Assembly: GCA_030642865.1 (NCBI GenBank)
Contig: DAOWMW010000024.1
Coordinates: forward strand, 1 to 10,157
Length of the DNA: 10,157 nucleotides
Direction: 5' to 3'
Source: Desulfobacteraceae bacterium
Lineage (GTDB): Bacteria > Desulfobacterota > Desulfobacteria > Desulfobacterales > BuS5
A program made the position numbers and the translations under genes. The notes beneath the pieces were generated by a model. That model was given only the letters and a program-made list of their open reading frames with translations, had not been told where the DNA came from and did not search any database. Of this stretch, positions 1 through 10,157 are shown piece after piece; position 1 is the stretch's first letter, and the number at the start of each line of letters is the position of its first letter.

Positions 1-2064
1 AAGATCACGGTCAAGACCTGTTTTTCGTATAATCTTTTGAACCCGTTTAAGCTTTTCCCCTGCCAGTGCAGCATCCGTACTCAGGGCATTATGGTATTCA
101 TCAATCAAAGCTGTGAGTTCCCTGTATTCCATATATGACCCCCCTTTTTCCAAGGGAGGAATCAAATGATCTATAATAACACCCCTTCCCCTTCTTTTAG
201 CCTGTATTCCCTCCCCAATATTGTCAACAATATAGGGATAAATATTTGGTATATCCTGGGCAAGAACCTCAGGAGGATCTGAAAGAGAGAGACCAACCTG
301 TTTTCCAGGGAGCCATTCATGGGTACCATGTTTTCCCAGGCTGATTATGGCGTTTGCATTAAATTTTTTTTTAAGCCACAAATAAAAGGCAATATATTGA
401 TGATGGGGATAAAGCTTTGTGTCATGATAAAGTTTTTCAGGGTCCGCAGAAAATCCCCTGGAGGGCTGGGCAACAAGAAGAATATTACCAAAATTAATGG
501 CGGGAATAATTATATTATTATTTTTTGCCATGAGCTTAAACTCATCGGGACTACCCCATTGACGGAGAACTTCTTCCTGAAAATGGGTGTCAAGTTCTTT
601 AAACCACTTCTTGTACTGTGTCACAGGTATTTGTATGACTTTCCCCTTTGTTATTAATTTATCCAGTTCTCCGGGAGCGTATGAACCCACATTTCTACCC
701 CCGAGGAGTATCAGCTTTTTTATTTCTTCCTCTGAAGGGAGGGGGTCTTTTATTGTGTACCCCTTCTTTTCCATGGCCTTTAAAATATTCGAAATAGATT
801 TAAAAAGATTAAGATAACTTGCGCCAATGTTCTGTTTTCCAGGGGGGTGGTTCCAGTAGAGTATGGCTATTTTTTTTTCTTTAGCAGACAGGGACTGAAG
901 TCTGTACCATCCTTTAATCCTCTTTATCAGAAAATCTATATTTTCTTCCATTGGTACTGTATCGAAAACCACATCGGTCATCTCTTTAAGACTAAAAGCT
1001 GTTTTTCCCCCAACCATGGAAGGTTCTATTGCTCCATTCTGTTCAGGCATGCATACCTGCCAGGCTATTCTCAAAGGAGAGATACCCACAGGGGATCTTT
1101 TCCACTTTTCAATGGTGACTGAATGGGCCAGAAGGGGCATGAACACAGGGGCATTTATCGCCTTTAAAATTCTTTTTGTCTCTTTGTCATCCCCTTTTAT
1201 GAATCTGAATAAAAAATCGCAAATTATTTGAACTCGCGGTTTTCCCTGTTTGTCCAGAAAAAACTCTTCCATAGATTCATGGTATGGGGGCCTTCCAAAA
1301 ACAGATAAGGTATTGATCTTTTCTTTTTCCAAAGAATTAACCATATAAGCCTCAACTTTCCCCCGCTCCTTTAGGACAGAGTTGGAAAAAGTATGTATAC
1401 CGACCCAAAACCCCTGGGGATTATATTTTCCACTATTTTTATACCATTTTATATATTCATCAAATGTGGAAAAAATATTTGGGGCATCAGGGTGAAATAT
1501 ACCAGATTTTGGGAGGAGGAAAGGTTTGTCATAGGAGTATTTCTCACCTTCCTTTGATAAGACCAGAAGGAGAAGATTTTTTACATTTTCATGGGTAGCT
1601 GATTTGTAGTACGCTTCTGTTTGAGCATTGAGCTCGATCTCTTTGCTTTTTAATTTGTCAGCAAGATATGCACACCGGAGACTGTAAACTTTTGAGCCTT
1701 TTTTTACATTAGAGGCCAAAAAATTTACAATCCCTTTATTCATGAAATCGGCTAATATTATGTCGCATTCCTGGATCTGGTCTTTTTTAACCCTGTTGCT
1801 TCTTATCTCCCGATCCGTATAAAAGGAGAAGGAATATCTGTCTGAAATTCCTGGAAGCTGTTTGATCTCTTTAAATGCCCTGGCTGCAACAATGCTGTCA
1901 CCGGACATTATAACCATGGCAATTTTTTTTTTAGCGATATCACCCTGGGCAGTGGAAGAAGTCAGAGAAAAAAGAATGAATACGAAAATAGAGATAATCC
2001 CCAGGCAGAAAGGGAGGCGGTGGAAAAAATTATTTATAAATGGGAATCGGCTAATTCTTGTCAT
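1..2064 (-). CDS. CobN-family chelatase large subunit with N-terminal export signal (partial, C-terminus beyond left edge)
   Basis: The frame is open for 688 codons from ATG 2064 to base 1 without a stop. CobN proteins are usually about 1,200-1,300 residues, so roughly the N-terminal half is present. The family signature is clear at residues 577-588 (GKHGTHEWLPGK), followed by GLSLSDPPEVLAQDIPNIYPYIV and DNIGEGIQAKRR, all typical of the CobN/BchH/ChlH porphyrin-chelatase core. Residues 1-16 are basic and polar, about 17-34 are strongly hydrophobic, and a possible signal-peptidase site follows STA at 37-39. The protein is therefore predicted to be exported or anchored in the inner membrane, unlike cytoplasmic CobN of aerobic cobalamin synthesis. 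The start overlaps the DUF2149 gene by 14 bp and has an AGAGGA ribosome site 8 bp upstream, indicating translational coupling. No CobS or CobT lies beside it; its companions are ExbB-like, DUF2149 and DUF2162 genes. It could be a cobaltochelatase or an HmuS-like enzyme acting on haem. Family assignment is firm; function is not. Confidence 0.9.
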   Translation of the reverse strand, partial: MTRISRFPFINNFFHRLPFCLGIISIFVFILFSLTSSTAQGDIAKKKIAMVIMSGDSIVAARAFKEIKQLPGISDRYSFSFYTDREIRSNRVKKDQIQECDIILADFMNKGIVNFLASNVKKGSKVYSLRCAYLADKLKSKEIELNAQTEAYYKSATHENVKNLLLLVLSKEGEKYSYDKPFLLPKSGIFHPDAPNIFSTFDEYIKWYKNSGKYNPQGFWVGIHTFSNSVLKERGKVEAYMVNSLEKEKINTLSVFGRPPYHESMEEFFLDKQGKPRVQIICDFLFRFIKGDDKETKRILKAINAPVFMPLLAHSVTIEKWKRSPVGISPLRIAWQVCMPEQNGAIEPSMVGGKTAFSLKEMTDVVFDTVPMEENIDFLIKRIKGWYRLQSLSAKEKKIAILYWNHPPGKQNIGASYLNLFKSISNILKAMEKKGYTIKDPLPSEEEIKKLILLGGRNVGSYAPGELDKLITKGKVIQIPVTQYKKWFKELDTHFQEEVLRQWGSPDEFKLMAKNNNIIIPAINFGNILLVAQPSRGFSADPEKLYHDTKLYPHHQYIAFYLWLKKKFNANAIISLGKHGTHEWLPGKQVGLSLSDPPEVLAQDIPNIYPYIVDNIGEGIQAKRRGRGVIIDHLIPPLEKGGSYMEYRELTALIDEYHNALSTDAALAGEKLKRVQKIIRKTGLDRDL

Positions 2065-2410
2065 CTGTCACATCCTCTGGAATATATATTACACGCCCGT
2101 CTTTAAGCTGATATGCAGTGCCAAGCCTGGTACCTTCTTCTCCCCCTGCTTTTTTATCGGTCACTTTCCTTACCTTTATATCCTTCCCCTTTTTTGTAAT
2201 AATTTTCCAGCTTCCCTCTGTTTTTTTCATAACAGTAATTTCACTTTCAGGGTTGAAAAAATCGAGTACCTGGTAAGTGGCCATGAGGGAAAGGAGCATG
2301 GCAACTATAAATACAAGGGCCACATCAAAAAGATTGGCAACCCCGTTTAACGGTTCTTCATGTTTTGCCATTAAAAGGTGATCAGAACGTTTTTTTTTCA
2401 AATATTTCAT
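2051..2410 (-). CDS. DUF2149-like protein, ExbD-like single-pass membrane protein
   Basis: This 119-residue protein has a basic cytoplasmic N-terminus (1-22), one transmembrane helix (about 26-46) and a soluble C-terminal part of about 70 residues, predicted periplasmic. The helix begins with NLFDVALVFIVAML, which places an acidic residue (Asp29) at its cytoplasmic end. That is the layout of ExbD, TolR and MotB, where the aspartate carries protons. The soluble part contains KDGRVIYIPED near the C-terminus. The start at 2410 is supported by a GAGGA ribosome site 7-8 bp upstream. The end overlaps the CobN-like gene by 14 bp. The assignment to DUF2149 is from memory of proteins of this size encoded beside CobN-like and ExbB-like genes; the ExbD analogy is inferred from topology and the aspartate. 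The likely role is stator partner of the neighbouring ExbB-like channel, coupling proton flow to the envelope chelatase. Confidence 0.8.
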   Translation of the reverse strand: MKYLKKKRSDHLLMAKHEEPLNGVANLFDVALVFIVAMLLSLMATYQVLDFFNPESEITVMKKTEGSWKIITKKGKDIKVRKVTDKKAGGEEGTRLGTAYQLKDGRVIYIPEDVTDDKN

Positions 2411-2513
2411 TGAATTCCTCGCTTGAAAGCGTATCCGTATCGTAACTATTCAGCCAATATATACCTGTTGCAATACACTGATTCAGCGTAGCTGAGTAGT
2501 TACTCCGTATCTT
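2411..2513. repeat. Imperfect inverted repeat in the exbB-DUF2149 spacer
   Basis: This 103-bp non-coding spacer interrupts an otherwise tightly packed operon. It holds a 12-bp inverted repeat with one mismatch: GTAACTATTCAG at 2442-2453 and CTGAGTAGTTAC at 2492-2503. An 8-bp direct repeat, TCCGTATC, occurs at 2434-2441 and again at 2504-2511, outside the two arms. Arms of this kind flanked by a short direct repeat suggest a small palindromic mobile repeat, but this is inference. No T-run follows either arm, so it does not look like an intrinsic terminator. Confidence 0.5.
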
Positions 2514-3149
2514 TTAAACAGTCGAAGAGTCACCATCAACCTTGGTCATAGCTTCTGTTACCAGATTTATATGGCGCATATCTTCCATGAGCCAGCGTTC
2601 TTTAACCACTGAAAAAAAATGTGCTGTAATGCCCAAAGCCAGTCCCACAACAGTTGTGGTAAAGGCAAGAATAAGGCTGGAAGAAAGTTGTGCCATATTT
2701 CCCTGGGTGAGACCGGCAAGACCGGTTCCCATGGGTATTAATGTTCCTATGAGTCCCAGACTGGGGCCTATGCGGACAATAAGACGTATTTTATCCACAT
2801 CCTTTAGCAATGAATATTCCTTGCGCTGGTTCAGGTCCTCCACCCGCTCCTCCATAAACTGGCTGTTTCCCTGGAGAATAGTATTTAATTCTTTAGCATA
2901 GTTTACTATATGAAGGGGCAGGCTTTTTTGAATTTTATCGGGTATATTTTTTCTTTTTTGAATATCCTCCAAAAAATCGGCCAACAATTCACTGGAACGA
3001 AACTGCCTCCGTTTTATCCATTCAGACAAAAAACTCCCTGTATATATAACCAGCCAAAGGGATAAAAAAATTAATAAAATTACAACCGGATAGAGCAGGG
3101 CAGTCGATATGGTATAAAGAACGGTTTGCAATGCAGGAAAAATATTCAC
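2514..3149 (-). CDS. MotA/TolQ/ExbB proton-channel family protein
   Basis: This 211-residue protein has the three-helix plan of ExbB/TolQ. Helix 1 spans about 13-37. A charged cytoplasmic stretch (42-120) follows, rich in Glu, Lys and Arg. Helices 2 and 3 span about 126-148 and 156-181. The signature is RIGPSLGLIGTLIPMGTGL (126-144), then GNMAQLSSSLILAFTTTVVG (150-169) with the pore-lining threonines TTT 164-166. These proteins assemble in the inner membrane with an ExbD-type partner and use proton flow to do mechanical work in the periplasm. The start is GTG at 3149, one base after the TGA of the upstream DUF2162 gene, with AAAGGAA just upstream. The partner here is most likely the DUF2149 protein encoded 103 bp downstream. 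No TonB, TonB-dependent receptor or flagellar gene is visible, so the driven component is inferred to be the CobN-like protein. Confidence 0.9.
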   Translation of the reverse strand: MNIFPALQTVLYTISTALLYPVVILLIFLSLWLVIYTGSFLSEWIKRRQFRSSELLADFLEDIQKRKNIPDKIQKSLPLHIVNYAKELNTILQGNSQFMEERVEDLNQRKEYSLLKDVDKIRLIVRIGPSLGLIGTLIPMGTGLAGLTQGNMAQLSSSLILAFTTTVVGLALGITAHFFSVVKERWLMEDMRHINLVTEAMTKVDGDSSTV

Positions 3150-3150
3150 A

Positions 3151-3897
3151 TCAATTCCTTTTTAAAAAATAGTTGTTAATAAATCCGATGCCCCCCAGTA
3201 GAACTGTGGAAAAAGCAAAAACAGTTGTACCAAAAGTATCTGCTTTGTTCACGGGACTATTGGAGCAGGCCATGGCAAAAGCGGCCTTTATATCCGGATA
3301 TATTGGAGCTATGATAACAGTCATTAAAAAATATAAAGAAATCAGAACCATGGTCATCCCTAAAAAAGAATTGTCCGCCCCAATTTTATGCCGGGCAGGA
3401 AAAATAACACCCAAGGTAATAATTATAATTCCGATGAAAAGAATAAAAAGTATTAAAGTTACCATAAAAGGGGATATGGAAAAAATGGAATAAGCAAGGG
3501 TCAGATTAAGGAGAATAACCGTGGCACATACGGGGCAGGGAAGAATCAGCAATAGAACCGAGCCTGGAAGATGATTCTCTTTTTTAGCCGAAGTCTGAAG
3601 AAGAAGACCTGTTCCCCAGAAAAGAAGCCCCAAAGCAACTGCAAGATGGAGCAGCATTCCATACTGGATCATATTCATGATCCTGTCCAGGTAATTTAAT
3701 AAATTAAAACGGGTGACACATAAATAAAGGGCGCAAAAAAGAATAAAATAGATAAGGCTTGTACCAAAAAACAAAAAAATTTTTTTAATGCCCGAGATGG
3801 TCCGGTTGTAGATCAGGGAACCCAGCCCCAGACCAACCTTTATTCCAAATACTGAAAAGGCAACCAGAATACCGGTTACCCATAGTTGTTTTAACAT
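3151..3897 (-). CDS. DUF2162-like polytopic membrane protein (putative transporter) with a CPVC motif
   Basis: The 248-residue protein is almost wholly hydrophobic, with about seven predicted membrane helices: roughly 5-29, 39-61, 78-100, 113-135, 143-165, 177-198 and 222-241. Helix 4 carries a buried Cys-Pro-Val-Cys motif (C121, C124) in LILPCPVCATVIL, a candidate metal or redox site. Further possible ligands are H84, H170 and C211. The assignment to DUF2162 (predicted transporters) is from memory of size, hydrophobicity and gene company; it is probable rather than certain. The gene ends 1 bp before the exbB-like start, so the two are co-transcribed. The start at 3897 has an AAAGGA ribosome site at 3907-3912, 9 bp upstream, which lies partly inside the base of a perfect 18-bp hairpin. 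It may move a metal ion, or act as the membrane platform for the ExbB/DUF2149/CobN set. Confidence 0.75.
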   Translation of the reverse strand: MLKQLWVTGILVAFSVFGIKVGLGLGSLIYNRTISGIKKIFLFFGTSLIYFILFCALYLCVTRFNLLNYLDRIMNMIQYGMLLHLAVALGLLFWGTGLLLQTSAKKENHLPGSVLLLILPCPVCATVILLNLTLAYSIFSISPFMVTLILFILFIGIIIITLGVIFPARHKIGADNSFLGMTMVLISLYFLMTVIIAPIYPDIKAAFAMACSNSPVNKADTFGTTVFAFSTVLLGGIGFINNYFLKRN

Positions 3898-3908
3898 TGT
3901 TATTTATC

Positions 3909-3950
3909 CTTTCCCCAGCTTCCGGGGTGAAGCCCGGAAGCTGGGGAAAG
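3909..3950. repeat. Perfect 18-bp stem, 6-base loop, at the DUF2162 ribosome site
   Basis: The arms 3909-3926 (CTTTCCCCAGCTTCCGGG) and 3933-3950 (CCCGGAAGCTGGGGAAAG) are exact reverse complements around the loop GTGAAG. In minus-strand mRNA the stem ends 11 bases before the DUF2162 start codon, and its base includes the AAAG of the AAAGGA ribosome site. Folding should therefore mask part of that site. No U-run follows on either strand, so it is not a standard intrinsic terminator. It could be a translational control element, an mRNA-stability stem or a dispersed palindromic repeat. Confidence 0.7.
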
Positions 3951-4106
3951 CCTTTCAAAAAAATCCTGGTATTATTAAAATAAAGTAAATTTAGCCAGTA
4001 AATATTCGGGTTGGTACTTTTTTTCAGGTTTTTCAAACAATTCGGAACACAATGAACGAATAATTGTTGGAATGGGACCAATAACCGATTGCCGTATTGT
4101 TCCTTT

Positions 4107-4133
4107 GTAGGGGCACGGTGCCCGTGCCCCTAC
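4107..4133. repeat. 12-bp palindrome of the GTAGGGGCACGG type
   Basis: The arms GTAGGGGCACGG (4107-4118) and CCGTGCCCCTAC (4122-4133) are perfectly complementary around a 3-base TGC loop. Its G+C content is far above the surrounding A+T-rich sequence, which suggests a dispersed repeat. Palindromes of this general form recur between genes in many bacteria (recollection). Neither strand has a following T-run, so terminator function is unlikely. Confidence 0.65.
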
Positions 4134-4261
4134 CATCAACAATTACAATAATTCAATGCACCACATTATATATTCTGGTCAATTTCTCGGTTTTTAACCA
4201 TTCATTTACTGGGTGTATCCTCTTGATAAAAAGTTTAGATTTTTGATCGAGTCCTAAAAGC

Positions 4262-5161
4262 CTATTTTTTATGGGGACACTTGTTAAAATGGCTGTCAGC
4301 AGCTTTTAAATGGTCAATCCATATTGCAACCATTTTATCATTTTCGGCTGTTCCTTTTAGTACAACATTACATTTGATACCTGATTCTGTAAGTATGGAT
4401 TTCCATGAATCAGCCTCATTCCCTGCCATATCATTTCTTGCATGGTCCCCTGCAACAGACATAAAAGGCATAAGGTATACCTTTTTGATTTTTTTCCCCT
4501 TTAACATTTTTTTTATATCATCAATACCAGGAGAACCTTCAACCGTCCCAATAAAGATATTCGGATCCATCTGCTGGAGGTTAAACATAAGCGCCGCGTA
4601 AAAAGCATTGGCAGGATGTGGTGTTCCGTGACCCATAAGAACAACAGCCTCTTTTTTCTTCCTTTTTTCAGGAATCGCACTTATTATGGCTTTTGCAACC
4701 CTTTCAATATCTTCCTGGGATGATAAAAGAGGATTTCCCACGACTACACCTTTAAACCCGTTGGGTATATGTTTAAATGCGTTTGCCGTATTAACAAGAT
4801 CATCATACTCTTCACCCCTGATTGTATGAAGAGATTGAATTACCACATAGGTAAAGCCTTCATCCATCATTTTCGCAAGGGCCATTGCAACTGAATCAAG
4901 ATTTTCCCTGTTTTCTTTTGCCAGTTTGTGGCGAATAATAGCTGATGTATATGCCCAGCGTACATCAACTCCTTTAAAGGTTTCTTTAACTTTGGTATCA
5001 ATATTTTTAAAAGAAATTTGCGCTTCAGGAATACTCGTGCCAAATGTAACAAGAAGTATCCCTTTTTTAAAAGGCCGATCATCTCCATGACCCGCAGCCC
5101 ATACAAATACCGGCAAACTCAGCATAAGAATAACTATTCCAGTAAATACCTTTGCTCTCAT
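4262..5161 (-). CDS. cbiK: Exported sirohydrochlorin cobaltochelatase, CbiK/CbiKP type
   Basis: CbiK inserts Co2+ into sirohydrochlorin (anaerobic cobalamin route) without ATP; periplasmic CbiKP forms exist in Desulfovibrio. The 299-residue protein starts with a signal peptide: basic MRAK, hydrophobic core about 6-20, probable cleavage after VWA (20-22). The mature chain opens with KKGILLVTFGTS. The metal-site residues are visible: H178 in MGHGTPHPAN, E208 in GTVEGSPG and H240 in AGDHARNDMAG. Their spacing of 30 and 32 residues equals that recalled for the catalytic His/Glu/His of D. vulgaris CbiKP. SLHTIRGEEY (110-119) is also characteristic. The two extra histidines recalled to bind haem in the D. 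vulgaris enzyme appear to be Asp120 and Asn127 here. The start at 5161 has a strong AAAGGAGGG ribosome site (5169-5177). The leader carries a cobalamin riboswitch and terminator, so expression should fall when cobalamin is plentiful. The last residues (NKCPHKK) include a Cys and a His. Confidence 0.93.
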   Translation of the reverse strand: MRAKVFTGIVILMLSLPVFVWAAGHGDDRPFKKGILLVTFGTSIPEAQISFKNIDTKVKETFKGVDVRWAYTSAIIRHKLAKENRENLDSVAMALAKMMDEGFTYVVIQSLHTIRGEEYDDLVNTANAFKHIPNGFKGVVVGNPLLSSQEDIERVAKAIISAIPEKRKKKEAVVLMGHGTPHPANAFYAALMFNLQQMDPNIFIGTVEGSPGIDDIKKMLKGKKIKKVYLMPFMSVAGDHARNDMAGNEADSWKSILTESGIKCNVVLKGTAENDKMVAIWIDHLKAADSHFNKCPHKK

Positions 5162-5205
5162 TGTTTTTCCCTCCTTTATAAAAAAAGATTATCTGTTATG
5201 GGCCC

Positions 5206-5247
5206 TAATAAATAAAAATACCCGGATTTATAAATAAATCCGGGTAT
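5206..5247 (-). terminator. Intrinsic terminator of the cobalamin riboswitch
   Basis: A perfect 13-bp stem is formed by 5235-5247 and 5218-5230 with a 4-base loop. In transcript order the arms read ATACCCGGATTTA and TAAATCCGGGTAT. The downstream arm is followed at once by TTTTTATTTATT. It lies between the aptamer and the cbiK ribosome site, the expected place for the expression platform of a transcription-terminating riboswitch. Confidence 0.85.
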
Positions 5248-5300
5248 CCCTTTTCCCCTCAAGATTTTTCCAGACGTCCCCTGTCCACGGGAAATACGTC

Positions 5301-5460
5301 TATTATTCAGGCAGGTCTTCTGACTCTTGGATCATCCTATTTTACTGTGCCTTCCCACAAACTTATAGTCTGCAGTGACAAAATACAGCTTTCGTCCCCA
5401 ATTACAGCGGCGGGCCCGTCCCGGAGTTTAACCGGGTTCCCTGATAAAATCCCTGAATAG
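5301..5460 (-). promoter_or_regulatory. Cobalamin (adenosylcobalamin-type) riboswitch aptamer
   Basis: Read on the minus strand, the conserved cobalamin-aptamer blocks occur in order. These are CAGGGAACC (about 5444-5437), GCCGCTGTAA (5411-5402), GTCACTGCA (5379-5371, the B12-box region), GGGAAGGC (5356-5349) and GAGTCAGAAGACCTGCC (5326-5310). The closing helix pairs CTATTCAGG (5460-5452) with CCTGAATAATAG (about 5311-5300). A further hairpin (arms 5272-5277 and 5296-5301) separates the aptamer from the terminator. The position in the leader of cbiK implies that cobalamin binding favours termination and represses cbiK, and perhaps the genes beyond it. The exact ends and ligand preference are inferred. 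Confidence 0.93.
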
Positions 5461-5468
5461 TTCTTCAA

Positions 5469-5497
5469 CTAATATATCACCTTAACAATATTTACAA
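5469..5497 (-). promoter_or_regulatory. Candidate sigma-70-type promoter for the riboswitch-cbiK transcript
   Basis: On the minus strand TTGTAA (5497-5492) and TATTAG (5474-5469) are separated by 17 bases. Each matches four of six consensus positions. Initiation about 7 bases further would fall near 5462, almost exactly at the 5' side of the first aptamer helix. The position is persuasive; the hexamers are only moderate. Confidence 0.45.
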
Positions 5498-5514
5498 TAA
5501 AAAATATCGGCTTA

Positions 5515-6858
5515 TTAATCTGCTTTTAAAAGATAATCAACAACCCTTTGCAGATGACGCAGAGTACTGCATTCCTTAACAGAAAAGCAATATGGGCTGT
5601 ATTTTTTAATCTCTGAATCACCTGTTCCCCATAGTGGGGGCGGCTCCGGATTGAGCCAGATTATTCTTTTACTTTTTTCTTTTATTTTTTTTAAAACGCC
5701 TGTTTCAGGATCACCATAATTGTTCCGTGCGTCTCCAAGAATCAAAACAGTTGTTTTGTTTGTAACTTTGCCAAGGGGTTTTTCCGCAAAATCTTTAAAC
5801 GCACGGCCATAATCCGTACCACTATAATCTATGCCTATTCCGTCCCCTTTTTGGAGGATGGCCAGTGTCTCACCTGCTTCATGCTTTTTAAAAATATGAC
5901 TTACTTCAACCAGATTTGAACAAAAAATATAGGAATTCATTTTTACAAGGGAATCATTCAGGCCATAGAGAAAAAGAAGCATGAACCGCACCACTGTCTC
6001 CACGGAACGGCTCACATCACACAGTACGGCAAGGCTGGGTCTATCTATTTTTTTCTTTTTCCAGCGGGGAGTAACCAAAATTCCATCATAAGCCATATTT
6101 GTCCGTAAAGTTTTTTTAATATCAAGGAACCCCCTCGTTGAAATTTTTTTTCTCCTTGAATGGAGATCATTTAAACGTTTAACCATTTTTTTAATAAGAA
6201 CCTGCATCTGGGCATAATCCCCCATCTCCAGATTGGATAATTTTACATCTTTAAGGTAATTTTCAACAAGCCTTCTGGTGGTGGAGCCGGAAAACAATGA
6301 GAGCTGCTTTTCCACATGATTTCTGACATTTTCAAAAAGAAGAGTTTTTGCTTCTTTTAATTTTTTCCCCTCCATGGGATTAAAAAATTTTCCTTGTAGC
6401 ATACGCCGGCTAATATCCGTATTTAAGCCCTCCATGCCCATTTGCAGCATTATCCTTCGTATATAGAGCCCCTTTTGGGTAAAAAAACTGATCTTATTAA
6501 CACTTGTTCTTTGAGCAGACGCTATTATTAAAACGGATAATTCGGCATTATTTTTTTCAAGCAAAAGCCTTGTGAGGTTATGGTCTCTATCCGTGGATAC
6601 CATATGGGAAGGTTTTCTTATTTCTGCTTTATTTTCATGGAAGAGAGCAGGAGAAAAAAAACTATCAAAACAATTATGAAACATCTCTTTTTCGGGTTGG
6701 GATTTTGCCAAAGCAGCAGCAAGTGAATCTTTAAAAACAGATCTGTTTCCATAGCCCACCAGACCAGCTGCACCCATGGCATCAATACTTTCTGATACTG
6801 ATATGCGTAAACCCGAACTTCTAAGGGCTGTAATAAAATTTTGCAGAATTTTTTCCAT
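5515..6858 (-). CDS. CoxE-type VWA domain protein
   Basis: This 447-residue protein has the CoxE-like layout. An N-terminal helical region (about 1-110) opens with FITALRSSGLRISVSESIDAM. A charged middle region (110-270) follows, then a C-terminal VWA domain (about 272-447). The metal-ion-dependent adhesion site looks complete: D281-x-S283-x-S285 (CDVSRSVE), T348 (SGTDYGRAF) and D376 (LGDARNN). RIIWLNPEPPPLWGTGDSE (398-416) is typical of the family. No signal peptide is seen, so it should be cytoplasmic. CoxE proteins usually work with a MoxR-type AAA+ ATPase, often encoded next door, to mature or insert metal into enzymes; CobT and BchD are distant functional parallels. No AAA+ gene is visible in the window, upstream or downstream. 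The start at 6858 fits the family N-terminus but lacks a clear ribosome site. The relation to the cobalamin genes downstream is positional only; no terminator is evident between this stop and the riboswitch promoter. Confidence 0.85.
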   Translation of the reverse strand: MEKILQNFITALRSSGLRISVSESIDAMGAAGLVGYGNRSVFKDSLAAALAKSQPEKEMFHNCFDSFFSPALFHENKAEIRKPSHMVSTDRDHNLTRLLLEKNNAELSVLIIASAQRTSVNKISFFTQKGLYIRRIMLQMGMEGLNTDISRRMLQGKFFNPMEGKKLKEAKTLLFENVRNHVEKQLSLFSGSTTRRLVENYLKDVKLSNLEMGDYAQMQVLIKKMVKRLNDLHSRRKKISTRGFLDIKKTLRTNMAYDGILVTPRWKKKKIDRPSLAVLCDVSRSVETVVRFMLLFLYGLNDSLVKMNSYIFCSNLVEVSHIFKKHEAGETLAILQKGDGIGIDYSGTDYGRAFKDFAEKPLGKVTNKTTVLILGDARNNYGDPETGVLKKIKEKSKRIIWLNPEPPPLWGTGDSEIKKYSPYCFSVKECSTLRHLQRVVDYLLKAD

Positions 6859-7241
6859 TTTTTGTTTAAAATTCGTGTAAATATTCAGTTATGACCTGAT
6901 TAATGGCGAAAACCCCATGGTGCAGCAGGAAAAAACAAAAAGAGTGGATAACTCCCACGCATGCCAGGTCGTAGCATTTTTAAAAAGTAGTATATCTCAT
7001 GAAGAAAACAGAAGTAAATTGATTTAACGAACTCCATCAGTACCATAGACTTTAAGATAATGATTTTGGGAAGGTCAGATTGATAAATATCTGTACGAGG
7101 CTTTTCAATTTATACATTACTGTTGCTCTCTAAGTTATTTTATAGTATTTTTTCATGGAGTAATCTTTGCATGGTCTGTTTGCTGATAAACAGATTGGAA
7201 TAAAGAATCACAAAAAAATAAGGGGTCAGGATAAAAACAGT
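6859..7241. other. Divergent intergenic region between the VWA gene and hisI
   Basis: This 383-bp stretch should carry the promoters for both divergent transcripts. I see no tRNA, known riboswitch or convincing gene. An in-frame ATG at 7167 would lengthen HisI by 25 residues, but those residues do not resemble the family. A weak minus-strand hairpin (GTGG/CCAC near 6945-6961) is followed by a T-rich run (TCTTTTTGTTTTTT); it might end a short transcript but the stem is only about four pairs. TATAGT near 7141-7146 could be a -10 element for hisI, without a good -35. Confidence 0.4.
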
Positions 7242-7622
7242 ATGGTTAATCTCGATTTTAAAAAAACAAAAGGACTTATTCCTGCCATAGTGCAGGAATA
7301 CAAAACCGGTGAGGTTTTGATGCTGGCTTATATTTCAAAAGAATCATGGGAAGCCACCCTGACAACAGGGAAGGCTACTTTTTTCAGCCGCAGTCGGCAG
7401 GAATTATGGGTCAAAGGAAAAACATCGGGTAATGTTCAAATCGTCAAAGAGATCAGGATCGATTGCGATAATGATACTGTTCTTTTAAAAGTAGATCAAA
7501 TAGGGGGTGCCGCATGCCACACAGGCCATAGAACCTGTTTTCACAAAATTATTGAAAATGGTAATGTAAAAGTGGTTGATAAACCTGTTTTTGATCCCAA
7601 AAAGGTATATAAAAATGAGTAA
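7242..7622 (+). CDS. hisI: Phosphoribosyl-AMP cyclohydrolase
   Basis: HisI opens the adenine ring of phosphoribosyl-AMP, the third step of histidine synthesis, in the cytoplasm. From ATG 7242 the product is 126 residues, normal for a single-domain cyclohydrolase with no HisE fusion. The core is [20 protein letters not shown] (11-30), then [16 protein letters not shown] (50-64). The metal sites are DCDND (74-78, Mg2+ ligands) and CHTGHRTC (92-99). The zinc cysteines are C75, C92 and C99. An upstream in-frame ATG at 7167 adds an unconserved lysine-rich tail, so 7242 is preferred; a GTCAGGA motif (7225-7231) serves as a modest ribosome site. The end overlaps hisG by 8 bp (ATGAGTAA), so the two are translationally coupled. 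Confidence 0.93.
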
Positions 7623-8490
7623 ACAATTGAAGCTTGGAATCCCCAAAGGAAGCCTCCAAAATGCAACAATATCCCTTTTTAAACGTTCGGGGTGGATTAT
7701 AAATATAAACGGAAGAAGCTATTTTCCAGAAATTGATGACAATGAAATCGACTGCGCCATATGCAGGGCTCAGGAGATATCCAAATATGTGGAGAGTGGT
7801 GTTCTGGATGCAGGCCTCACAGGTAAAGACTGGATAGCCGAAAACAATTCTGATGTTCATGTTGTAACCGATCTTGTTTATTCCAAGGTCAGTTCCAAGC
7901 CGGCACGCTGGGTCATTGCTGTTCCATATGACTCAGACATAAAAACCCTGACGGACCTTGAAGGAAAGACCATTGCTACGGAACTGGTTGAATTTACAAA
8001 AAAATATTTTTCTGAACGAAAGATTAATGTAAACGTCGAATTTTCATGGGGAGCCACCGAAGCAAAGGTAGTATCAAAACTTGCCGATGCCATTGTTGAA
8101 GTTACGGAAACAGAAAGTACCATAAAAGCACATGGCCTTAAAATTATTCGTGAATTAATGGAGACCAACACCCAGCTCATTGTAAATCATAAAGTATGGG
8201 AAGACCCTGTAAAAAAAGCAAAAATCGAACAGCTTGCACTTCTGCTTAATGGGGCACTTCTTGGAGAAAAATATGTGGGGCTTAAAATGAATACCTCTGA
8301 TATTAATCTTGAAAAAGTAGTCTCCCTTCTTCCAAGCCTTAATGCTCCCACAGTGGCACCACTTTACAATTCAAAATGGTTCTCTGTTGAAACAGTTGTC
8401 AGCTCAAATGCTGTACGAAAACTTTTACCCCAACTCCTAAAAAATGGAGCCGAAGGAATAATAGAATATCCGCTGAACAAAGTAATTTAA
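7615..8490 (+). CDS. hisG: ATP phosphoribosyltransferase, long form
   Basis: HisG joins ATP and PRPP in the first committed, histidine-inhibited step of histidine synthesis. The start at 7615 gives [18 protein letters not shown] at the N-terminus, as in the family, and is preceded by AAAAAGGT. The catalytic domains cover about 1-210. They show DAGLTGKDW (65-73), the GATEAKV turn (146-152) and the PRPP-binding stretch [18 protein letters not shown] (158-175). Residues about 215-291 form the ACT-like regulatory domain of long-form HisG, ending in a segment with WFSVETVV and [10 protein letters not shown]. The long form works as a hexamer and needs no HisZ partner, consistent with the absence of hisZ here. 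It overlaps hisI by 8 bp and lies 12 bp before engB. Confidence 0.95.
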
Positions 8491-8502
8491 AAAATCATTA
8501 TA

Positions 8503-9084
8503 ATGATAATTAAACATTCAAGTTTCATAACAAGTGCAGTAAAACCCCCCCAGTATCCTGAAACCTCTTTTCCTGAAATAGCTTTTGCGGGGCGTTCAAA
8601 TGTTGGGAAATCTACCCTTATTAATACTGTTATAAACCGAAAACGCCTGGTGAAGACCAGTTCTACCCCAGGAAGAACGCAGCTTATTAATTTTTTTGAA
8701 ATAAATAAATCATTTATATTTGTGGATCTTCCCGGATATGGATATGCCAGGGTCCCTGTGGCTGTTAAAAAATTATGGGGCCCCATGGTGGAGACATACC
8801 TTTCAACAAGAGCATTACTAAAAGGTGTTGTTTTAATCATGGACATCCGCAGGATACCGGGCGCCGAAGAATTACAAATGGCCCGGTTTCTCAATTATCT
8901 AAATATCCCGATAATATTTATCATAACCAAAGCAGATAAACTTTCAAAAACAAAACAGGCAAAACAGCATAAAGCCATAGCTGAAACTCTCATGGTAAAA
9001 AAGAGTGATCTGATAATTTTTTCAGCAAAATCACGCCTGGGAAAAGAGGCCGTTCTAAAGACGGTTGAGAAGTTAATTATATGA
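8503..9084 (+). CDS. engB: Ribosome biogenesis GTPase EngB (YihA/YsxC)
   Basis: EngB is a cytoplasmic GTPase needed for assembly of the 50S ribosomal subunit and, in many bacteria, for division. The 193-residue protein has the usual length and all G motifs: G1 GRSNVGKST (30-38), G2 within TSSTPGRTQ (52-60), G3 DLPGYG (75-80), G4 TKAD (142-145) and G5 SAK (174-176). The N-terminus, KHSSFITSAVKPPQYP, matches the family and supports ATG 8503. No Shine-Dalgarno sequence is visible in the 12 bp after hisG, so translation may depend on coupling to hisG. The stop overlaps the era start by 4 bp (ATGA). Confidence 0.95.
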   Translation: MIIKHSSFITSAVKPPQYPETSFPEIAFAGRSNVGKSTLINTVINRKRLVKTSSTPGRTQLINFFEINKSFIFVDLPGYGYARVPVAVKKLWGPMVETYLSTRALLKGVVLIMDIRRIPGAEELQMARFLNYLNIPIIFIITKADKLSKTKQAKQHKAIAETLMVKKSDLIIFSAKSRLGKEAVLKTVEKLII

Positions 9085-9986
9085 ACTATTCAAATAATTT
9101 TGAAAAGAATAAATCCGGTTTTGTGGCCATTATTGGTCCTCCAAATGCGGGAAAATCGACTTTTTTAAACAAAGTTCTTGGGATGAAAATTTCCATAACT
9201 TCAAAAAAACCGCAAACCACAAGAAACCGTATTGTTGGTGTATTAACAAGAGCCAATGCTCAATTTATCTTCATAGATACCCCAGGAGTACATAAGCCAA
9301 AAGGGGTATTAAACGAAAGAATAGTCGATGTGGCTGTTTCGGCCATTTCAGATGTTGATCTGGTTCTTGTTTTAATTGACGCTGCAAACAAAGATTCTGT
9401 TTCGGAACAACTTATCCTGGAACAGCTTGAAAAACAGAAACGGCCTGTTATCCTTGCTTTAAACAAGATAGATCTTCTGGATAAAAATATTCTTTTAAGC
9501 CAGATTGACAAATGGTCAAAAGCATACTCTTTTAAATCGATCATCCCTGTTTCAGCGAAAACCGGCACCCAGGTGGATGACCTCCTCGATGCAATGGAGA
9601 TATTCCTTCCAAAAGGACATTTTTTATACCCCGAAGATACCCTTACAGAATCCCCCACAAATTTTATTGTAGCGGAAATAATCCGTGAAAAAGCCTTCCG
9701 CCTGACAGGTCAGGAGCTACCTTATTCCGTGGCAGTAACCATCGATTTGTTTCAGGAAAAAAAAAGAGGCTCCATGGTTAAAATTTTCGCAACCATACAT
9801 GTGGAACGGGATTCTCAAAAAAAAATAATTATAGGAAAAAACGGAAGTAAAATAAAACAGATAGGCCAAAGCGCAAGACTCGATATTGAAAAAATATTAA
9901 ACACAAAGGTTTTTTTAAAACTTTTCATACGGGTTCAAAAAAACTGGAGTAAAGATACAAAGGCTCTTAGAAATTTTGGTTATTAA
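9081..9986 (+). CDS. era: GTPase Era
   Basis: Era binds the 3' end of 16S rRNA and acts in 30S subunit maturation, at the cytoplasmic face of the membrane. The 301-residue protein has the normal length and order. The GTPase domain has G1 GPPNAGKST (19-27), TTRNR (46-50) with the G2 threonine, G3 DTPG (66-69), G4 NKID (128-131) and G5 SAK (158-160). The C-terminal KH domain (about 205-290) shows the GxxG loop GKNG (252-255) and ends with IRVQKNWSKDTKALRNFGY, as expected. The start overlaps engB by 4 bp, giving translational coupling, and the two ribosome-assembly GTPases follow histidine genes in one compact operon. A palindromic repeat follows the stop. Confidence 0.97.
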   Translation: MNYSNNFEKNKSGFVAIIGPPNAGKSTFLNKVLGMKISITSKKPQTTRNRIVGVLTRANAQFIFIDTPGVHKPKGVLNERIVDVAVSAISDVDLVLVLIDAANKDSVSEQLILEQLEKQKRPVILALNKIDLLDKNILLSQIDKWSKAYSFKSIIPVSAKTGTQVDDLLDAMEIFLPKGHFLYPEDTLTESPTNFIVAEIIREKAFRLTGQELPYSVAVTIDLFQEKKRGSMVKIFATIHVERDSQKKIIIGKNGSKIKQIGQSARLDIEKILNTKVFLKLFIRVQKNWSKDTKALRNFGY

Positions 9987-10157
9987 ATGACAGTATCGTC
10001 CGGTTAGAGTTTTGCAAGAGGGAAGTTTACTTGTTTTTGTAGCGTATTGAATAAATTTCTTAGAATTTCTTAGTGCAGCGTAGCCAAAAAATTGCGATTG
10101 TTTGAGCGAGGCACGAGCGAGTTTCGCAATTTTGGCGAAGCAAACTTAGAAATTCAA
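9987..10157. repeat. Palindromic repeat region after era
   Basis: No gene is seen. A 10-bp tandem duplication, AATTTCTTAG, covers 10054-10063 and 10064-10073. A large imperfect palindrome spans about 10063-10155. Its inner arms are GCCAAAAAATTGCGA (10083-10097) and TCGCAATTTTGGC (10124-10136), complementary apart from two extra A residues. Its outer ends are GAATTTCT (10063-10070) and AGAAATTC (10148-10155). The loop contains the near-repeat GAGCGAG/CGAGCGAG. It may end the era transcript, but the lack of a clean T-run and the modular form favour a dispersed intergenic repeat. Confidence 0.55.

Follow-up and report, generated by a model that had tools for sequence, protein, structure and literature searches.

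A candidate proton-driven envelope chelatase of the corrinoid branch under a cobalamin riboswitch in a Desulfobacteraceae genome

The window analysed here is a stretch of 10,157 nucleotides that makes up the whole of one contig (C244; DAOWMW010000024.1, positions 1 to 10,157 of the forward strand, assembly GCA_030642865.1) from a Desulfobacteraceae bacterium whose genome is 67% complete. Its minus strand carries, in this order, a cobalamin riboswitch, a terminator hairpin and genes for CbiK, a DUF2162 membrane protein, an ExbB-type channel, a DUF2149 protein and a CobN-family protein. We consider there to be an even chance that the locus encodes a chelatase machine of the cell envelope, of a corrinoid branch, in which an ExbB/DUF2149 pair would be the motor and DUF2162 a metal relay. 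A wider proposal, held tentatively, is that ExbB/DUF2149 is a motor driven by the proton-motive force which, in bacteria and archaea alike and also as HmuU/V of the Bacteroidota haem-uptake (hmu) operon, stands in for the AAA+ subunits of class I chelatases; that the machine acts outside the inner membrane on B12-like rings, removing or swapping their cobalt or other metals; and that the CobN tail hands the metal to the PCPxC motif of DUF2162, which would be a cobalt permease.

The first-pass annotation had described, within positions 1 to 3897, four tightly packed genes for a seven-helix membrane protein, an ExbB-type channel, a single-pass protein with an ExbD-like aspartate and a CobN-like protein with an N-terminal signal, and Pfam matches, hydropathy and gene spacing bear this out; all four are on the minus strand. 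DUF2162 (3151..3897; PF09930, 129 bits) has seven helices predicted from hydropathy. A 1-bp gap separates it from the ExbB/TolQ-type channel (2514..3149; PF01618 MotA_ExbB, 41.5 bits against a cut-off of 22.9), which has two predicted helices and a GTLIPMG motif, belongs to a DUF2149-associated class and is the equivalent of HmuU. After 103 bp follows DUF2149 (2051..2410; PF09919, 102 bits), the HmuV equivalent, with one predicted helix bearing an ExbD-like aspartate, D29, and its gene overlaps by 14 bp that of the CobN/HmuS-type class I chelatase (1..2064; PF02514 CobN-Mg_chel, 515 bits). The window end cuts the latter gene after the N-terminal 688 aa, and contig C87 starts with the same 141 bp (an exact overlap), which gives a joined protein of 1316 aa. 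Because the next gene on C87 (mtnA-like, judged from its sequence) is convergent, the operon would end right after CobN. Upstream stand the riboswitch (5293..5499; RF00174, 97 bits against a gathering score of 31.5, E 9.7e-24), an intrinsic terminator (5214..5251; a 17-pair hairpin and T-run, z -3.8) and cbiK (4262..5161; PF06180, 259 bits), all on the same strand. The 364-bp gap from cbiK to DUF2162 contains a dispersed repeat (about 3998-4150) and a perfect inverted repeat (3909-3950), and since a search of this gap for a terminator-like site found none, the set from the riboswitch through CobN is likely to be a single transcript.

A hydropathy scan of the joined CobN finds hydrophobic helices at 17-35 and 1291-1309, from which we predict an export-type N-terminus and a C-terminal helix, the same anchoring as in HmuS; the export claimed at the outset thus stands as a prediction for the joined 1316-aa protein. 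Kinship with HmuS had also been suggested and is supported both by structure matches, HmuS being the best in the PDB (493 bits, against 477 and 458 for CobN and 404 for ChlH), and by trees. In a careful tree of 43 rows, the exported CobNs of bacteria and archaea together with HmuS, itself a single clade (100/100), are split from cytosolic CobN/BchH at 99/96; the 43 were taken from 61 rows hand-picked among 85 candidates (77, plus 8 from plasmids), and a quick tree of all 61 agrees with the exported/cytosolic split. The NCBIfam CobN equivalog model gives 402 bits against a cut-off of 1619, a score obtained with the 688-aa part alone. The catalytic histidine is kept in 60/61 aligned rows; in HmuS it is His-538 of HFG(T/A)HG, which is H579 here and is kept in all 29 exported bacterial rows.

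Elsewhere the protein differs from HmuS. The HmuS motif LSLDHxxEFMGG with His-1209 is absent, and the protein reads LDNDDMFAFLGG, with Asp-1030 at that position. In the 61-row alignment the position holds Asp in 29/29 exported bacterial and 14/15 exported archaeal rows and His in 6/6 HmuS rows; Asp is also present in all five CobN-type rows from plasmids. Among the cytosolic rows, five have Asp (four annotated CobN and the unannotated L201), three His (BchH, the C148 protein of the same genome and a Methanothrix protein) and three Cys or Gly. Cytosolic CobN-type proteins with Cys or Gly there, in a CC-rich motif, are found in L166, L090 and L101. The HGR haem-site histidine (HmuS His-254) occurs in 6/6 HmuS and 0/44 other exported rows, over a loosely aligned stretch. 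As to the Met-rich insertion in domain IV of HmuS, residues 692-905 of 9d26 have no aligned counterpart here, and sizing the insert by alignment columns was uninformative and was dropped. At the C-terminus, a C-C-x-H-x-C motif is found in 26/29 bacterial and 12/15 archaeal exported rows, and two further archaeal rows have four Cys.

DUF2162 carries a PCPxC motif inside predicted helix 4 and His84 in helix 3. The motif was present in 63/63 DUF2162 sequences and, in HmuT, in 0/7 and then 0/8 more. Among 67 CobN rows (at least 1100 aa, from phylum and named-genome loci plus the window, with L090 and L101 left out as cytosolic), 61 show agreement between the presence of a DUF2162 in the locus and that of the Cys/His motif in CobN. 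The six that disagree are L048 and L059, both truncated, L112 with a variant motif, and three anammox loci; the motif pattern scored L099 and L100, which have CC-x-x-T-C, as lacking it. We infer metal hand-over between the two proteins from this co-occurrence of sequence features. CbtX (COG3366) is presumably a family other than DUF2162, and identification of DUF2162 with the CbtX of PMC545781 was dropped.

For the proposed motor, the window-class ExbB matches classical ExbB at 97.9% by hhalign and retains the Thr of both TM2 and TM3. N26 and D29 of DUF2149 are invariant in 28/28 sequences, that of the window included. A homologue search with DUF2149 gave 7621 homologues among 7999 scored candidates and was set aside, as the 120 listed lacked diversity. 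DUF2149 does not match the ExbD family PF02472, PF09919 being its sole listing at E up to 0.1, and a transmembrane Asp is common to both families.

Beyond this genome, a sample of 296 genomes from the phylum gave DUF2149 in 34 (31 above the Pfam cut-off) and a closer set of 58 gave it in 8, the window genome being counted in each. Methanosarcina acetivorans, an archaeon, has a DUF2149 match as well. The phylum set comprised 41 loci including the window, of which L082-L085 were taken out because their DUF2149 was missing or did not exceed 80 bits. The remaining 37 DUF2149 loci contain ExbB in 35, CobN in 32 and DUF2162 in 32; of the five lacking CobN, four are no more than about 5 kb from the end of their contig and the fifth has a broken DUF2149. 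TonB receptors occur in 31, a BtuF-CbiZ fusion in 16, a CbiK-like gene in 12, TonB in 11 and ExbD in 8, and CbiZ or CbiK-like genes occur in 26. In at least 26 of 35 phylum loci a same-strand cobalamin riboswitch is found no more than 9 kb upstream, and in at least 23 no more than 3.5 kb upstream; uniform placement would give 0.24. Eight other non-Bacteroidota bacterial loci (anammox, Nitrospira, Verrucomicrobia and Poribacteria) have a riboswitch in 7/8, upstream of the set in 6/8, and the six Bacteroidota loci scanned have none; L224 and L225 stood outside the riboswitch scan. The riboswitch, the CbiZ, CbiK and cbi neighbours and the Asp in place of HmuS His-1209 argue for a corrinoid rather than a haem branch, as had been suggested. 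The BtuF-CbiZ fusion, seen at L070:7902-9953 and in 15 other loci, joins a BtuF-like binding protein to a CbiZ amidohydrolase; it is presumably exported and presumably acts in corrinoid loop removal outside the inner membrane.

The archaea, which have no outer membrane, bear on whether the ExbB/DUF2149 pair serves the chelatase or a receptor. A wider survey took the best 80 of at least 557 loci in named genomes, found via an ExbB relative, and CobN was near ExbB on the same strand in 24/26 loci of other bacteria, 7/7 of Bacteroidota and 13/47 of archaea (within 7 kb for the archaea). Twelve of the 13 archaeal CobN loci are of the exported type (L101 is cytosolic) and all 12 have DUF2162, ExbB, DUF2149 and CobN in one line; a TonB receptor was found in none of the 13. 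Because these 12 loci keep the full set and lack the receptor, the pair probably serves the chelatase and not an outer-membrane receptor. The published view, which we regard as unlikely for the present set, is that the pair only powers a TonB-dependent receptor, with CobN independent of it, HmuU/V being drawn as powering HmuR (PMC10100974, PMC12583661). The receptors in 31/37 loci are consistent with this view, but none was found in the window, and classical ExbD and TonB genes stand in addition to ExbB/DUF2149 in 8/37 bacterial loci and on plasmid pGLOV01. The first-pass annotation had set the locus apart from a link to a haem receptor; most relatives do carry a TonB receptor, of which the window showed none.

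The mechanism that we propose from gene content, linkage, the riboswitch, predicted topology, residue patterns and the tree would have CobN exported and anchored, through a helix at each end, to the inner membrane on its outer side. ExbB and DUF2149 would form a proton-driven motor, as ExbB/ExbD do, taking over the mechanical role of CobS/CobT or ChlI/ChlD and cycling CobN between conformations around a B12-like ring in its cleft. Metal would pass between the C-terminal CC-x-H-x-C cluster of CobN and DUF2162, whose intramembrane PCPxC and His may make it a metal permease or relay; the exported CbiK could be a second periplasmic tetrapyrrole-binding chelatase, and the riboswitch would switch on expression of the set under B12 shortage. 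A chelatase driven by proton flow had already been suggested, and this stays, like the direction, an interpretation; the archaeal loci without a receptor support the pairing of chelatase and motor. As to direction, we give metal removal or exchange about an even chance, cobalt insertion clearly less, though a substantial share, and some other reaction the small remainder. The same machine run in reverse, inserting cobalt into metal-free or wrongly metallated corrinoids from outside, is on the whole somewhat unlikely. It would suit the active-site Asp, which is that of the cobalt-inserting CobN, and the presumably exported BtuF-CbiZ fusions of 16/37 loci, which suggest ring salvage; cobalt insertion into exogenous cobalamin has also been speculated for Chlorobaculum (PMC8620254). 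However, the sole tested exported relative removes metal, and in other branches expression is switched on by iron limitation or falls under the Zur regulon.

The hmu operon (PMC12583661, PMC10100974, PMC13227078) likewise places a doubly anchored, exported CobN homologue beside ExbB-type and DUF2149 genes, and in the tree HmuS and the CobN described here share one side. The suggestion that the small genes here are hmu genes stands for HmuU as ExbB and HmuV as DUF2149, which are so named in print, whereas HmuT matches DUF2162 weakly and lacks PCPxC. The hmu system has iron control, the His-1209 motif and the haem-site His; the present locus has a cobalamin riboswitch and neither His feature. 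HmuS demetallation is independent of ATP (PMC12583661). That the window encodes a haem system, a HmuS-type de-chelatase with another permease, for iron, is in our judgement distinctly improbable, even though HmuS is the top-scoring solved structure (493 against 477 bits for CobN), the CbiK matches include the haem-binding FetB, and the title of one paper calls CbiKP of Desulfovibrio vulgaris haem-binding. It is countered by the Asp in place of His-1209, the HGR His found in 0/44 exported rows outside HmuS (loosely aligned), the lack of an aligned counterpart of HmuS 692-905, the lack of any HmuY found, and the cobalamin riboswitch with cbi/CbiZ neighbours. PMC10100974 described hmu-like operons with B12 riboswitches and held HmuV to be diagnostic of haem transport; the present survey does not support HmuV as a haem-transport marker.

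ATP motors drive the class I chelatases of biosynthesis, CobN and ChlH. CobS/CobT-type partners elsewhere in the genome had been named beforehand as evidence that would count against the proposal. Cytosolic CobN paralogues with ChlD/ChlI do exist in this genome: on C148 (L001) and C158 (L045) a cytosolic CobN is followed by ChlD and ChlI, with near-identical CobN C-termini on the two contigs and an active-site motif, TDLDHYYEFFGG, of the His type (HmuS/BchH). The N-terminal part of another CobN gene, also cytosolic, lies on C259, which brings the CobN genes besides the exported one to two. The ChlI/ChlD genes adjoin these paralogues and not the exported-CobN locus, and 7 of 17 genomes with an exported CobN gave no ChlD match. 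A reliance of the exported CobN on genomic ChlI/ChlD, with ExbB/DUF2149 serving something else, could draw on the presence of both genes on C158/C148 and on four other genomes with ChlD matches and no second CobN; since the exported CobN and ChlI/ChlD are also predicted on opposite sides of the membrane, we regard it as very improbable.

Several observations weigh against the proposed envelope chelatase. The tie of DUF2149 to ExbD is weak (hhalign 2.6%, with the Asp aligned), and three matches of the Pfam DUF2149 model, all under its cut-off, are to loci scoring as ExbD. Thr and Glu residues line the proton path of ExbB, and the TM3 Glu of most classical ExbBs in the same loci is replaced by a hydrophobic residue in the DUF2149-associated class. 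An ATP-type CobN-ChlD-ChlI set is present in the same genome (C148/C158), and G018, G008, G257 and G075 have ChlD matches and no second CobN. Nine of the 35 phylum loci have no upstream riboswitch among the matches listed, some being cut by contig ends, and in anammox L128 the sole riboswitch seen is downstream, the scanned stretch ending before the region further upstream. The three anammox loci have the Cys motif and no local DUF2162. Removing cobalt from a corrin that is intact is very difficult. No CobN lies within 7 kb in 34/47 archaeal ExbB loci, many of them short contigs, and because some archaeal ExbB/DUF2149 pairs sit beside giant CARDB/DUF3344 surface proteins instead, the motor may have other clients too. 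Such surface proteins adjoin ExbB/DUF2149 in L121, L133 and L137, and likewise L093, where ExbB alone was seen; CARDB/DUF3344 was found in L121, L137 and L093. Cobyric acid synthase adjoins in L121 and L133 only, one more archaeal match being in L149, and CobQ was dropped as a general archaeal partner.

The link of the active-site Asp to B12 was put to a test in 119 genomes from the order of Phocaeicola, which we take to be the Bacteroidales; PF02514 was found in 9/119, and eight loci were scanned. Both CobNs with a cobalamin riboswitch have Asp (2/2) and all those without one have His (6/6). Of the two, L216 is a riboswitch-TonB receptor-CobN locus with no ExbB/DUF2149 and no C-terminal helix, a further point against the proposal, and L218 has a cytosolic CobN with ChlI and ChlD; Asp therefore tracks B12 control and not export, and a motor encoded in the locus is not a general rule. 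As the sequences are related, the test represents few independent events. A Pseudoalteromonas plasmid (L234:5626-10435) carries ExbB-DUF2149-CobN with neither DUF2162 nor the C-terminal Cys cluster, and L073 is alike. This gammaproteobacterial relative also has Asp, and its arrangement is like that of P. aeruginosa PA1922-1925, a Zur-regulated set; Asp is thus no sure sign of a corrin, which again tells against our reading. PA1922-1925 comprises a TonB receptor, a CobN-like protein, a proton-channel family member and DUF2149 under zinc control (PMC9431628, PMC8531726); the likeness of L234 to it is by gene arrangement and not by PA sequence.

Among described loci, plasmids pSZ77/pGLOV01 of Trichlorobacter (Geobacter) lovleyi have DUF2162, ExbB, DUF2149 and CobN arranged as in the window, preceded by a TonB receptor and by cobalamin riboswitches in tandem (PMC3403914). 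pGLOV01 differs in having two TonB receptors, a classical ExbB-ExbD-TonB set and no CbiK annotated in 31.7 kb. The authors noted in 2012 that the pSZ77 CobN lacks CobS/CobT and left its role unknown, and in the available parts of that paper DUF2162, ExbB and DUF2149 are not treated as a unit. The CobN of the aerobic CobN-CobS-CobT cobaltochelatase shares PF02514, the catalytic His and the active-site Asp with the present protein; it is, however, cytosolic and ATP-driven (PMC12583661), and CobN rows from plasmids lie on the other side of the tree (99/96), whereas the CobN here has exported-type ends and no CobS/CobT or ChlI/ChlD partner in the locus. The window CbiK, with its hydrophobic, signal-like N-terminus (export predicted), is of the CbiKP type, its best PDB match being the periplasmic CbiKP of D. 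vulgaris (2xvx, 272 bits). The link to an exported CbiK made in the first-pass annotation applies to the window and is not constant, since only 3/9 CbiK ORFs of fetched loci, the window's included, have a signal-like N-terminus, and exported CbiK was rejected as a constant partner. Desulfovibrio cbiK is under a B12 element too, and its neighbours are btuCDF/cbiL and cbtX, not CobN/DUF2149 (PMC545781). BtuS of Rodionov 2003 is cited in PMC6460266, and further related work is found in PMC10434189, PMC11124144, PMC4063343, PMC2667541 and PMC3087415. In the literature searched, outside which most subscription papers lie, we found no account of a proton-driven chelatase or of the gene set as one system; DUF2149 is named there in 5 papers and DUF2162 in none. 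Relatives linked to B12 had been remarked on in print before, but the system was left unresolved, and the set of the corrinoid branch is widespread and little described in the searchable literature.

If the proposal is right, a proton-driven chelatase would add a new type of energy coupling to metallocofactor chemistry, and HmuT/U/V, whose function in print is open or assigned to the TonB receptor, would gain one. It would also help to explain the archaeal CobN-like proteins, the role of which was called unclear in PMC12583661, and would point to a way in which cobalt or corrinoids are recycled by anaerobes. Direct handles for mutants are offered by the Asp/His and PCPxC/CC-x-H-x-C patterns, with C1193/C1197 of CobN and C121/C124 of DUF2162 among the candidate positions.

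A VWA_CoxE gene (5515-6858) ends 16 bp before the riboswitch, and no neighbouring gene in the window was seen to encode a MoxR-type ATPase; the VWA_CoxE gene was set aside as an AAA+/VWA partner, as its model matched the window ORF alone when the ORFs of 44 other loci were scanned, and the gene precedes the riboswitch. A Haloferax CobN glycopeptide (PMC8241124) is catalogued as cytosolic and gave no help on location. In G145, G091 and G167 the CobN-family match is spread over two neighbouring open frames of roughly 800 and 500 aa. A second perfect inverted repeat, at 4107-4133, lies in the stretch from cbiK to DUF2162, and the dispersed repeat at 3998-4150 has further copies on C57, C226 and C189 (91-97% identity). 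On C259, L044:1-6819 presents a row of an apparent TonB receptor end, an SBP_bac_5 protein, two permeases, two ATPases and the CobN start, a possible second metal-tetrapyrrole or nickel uptake locus.

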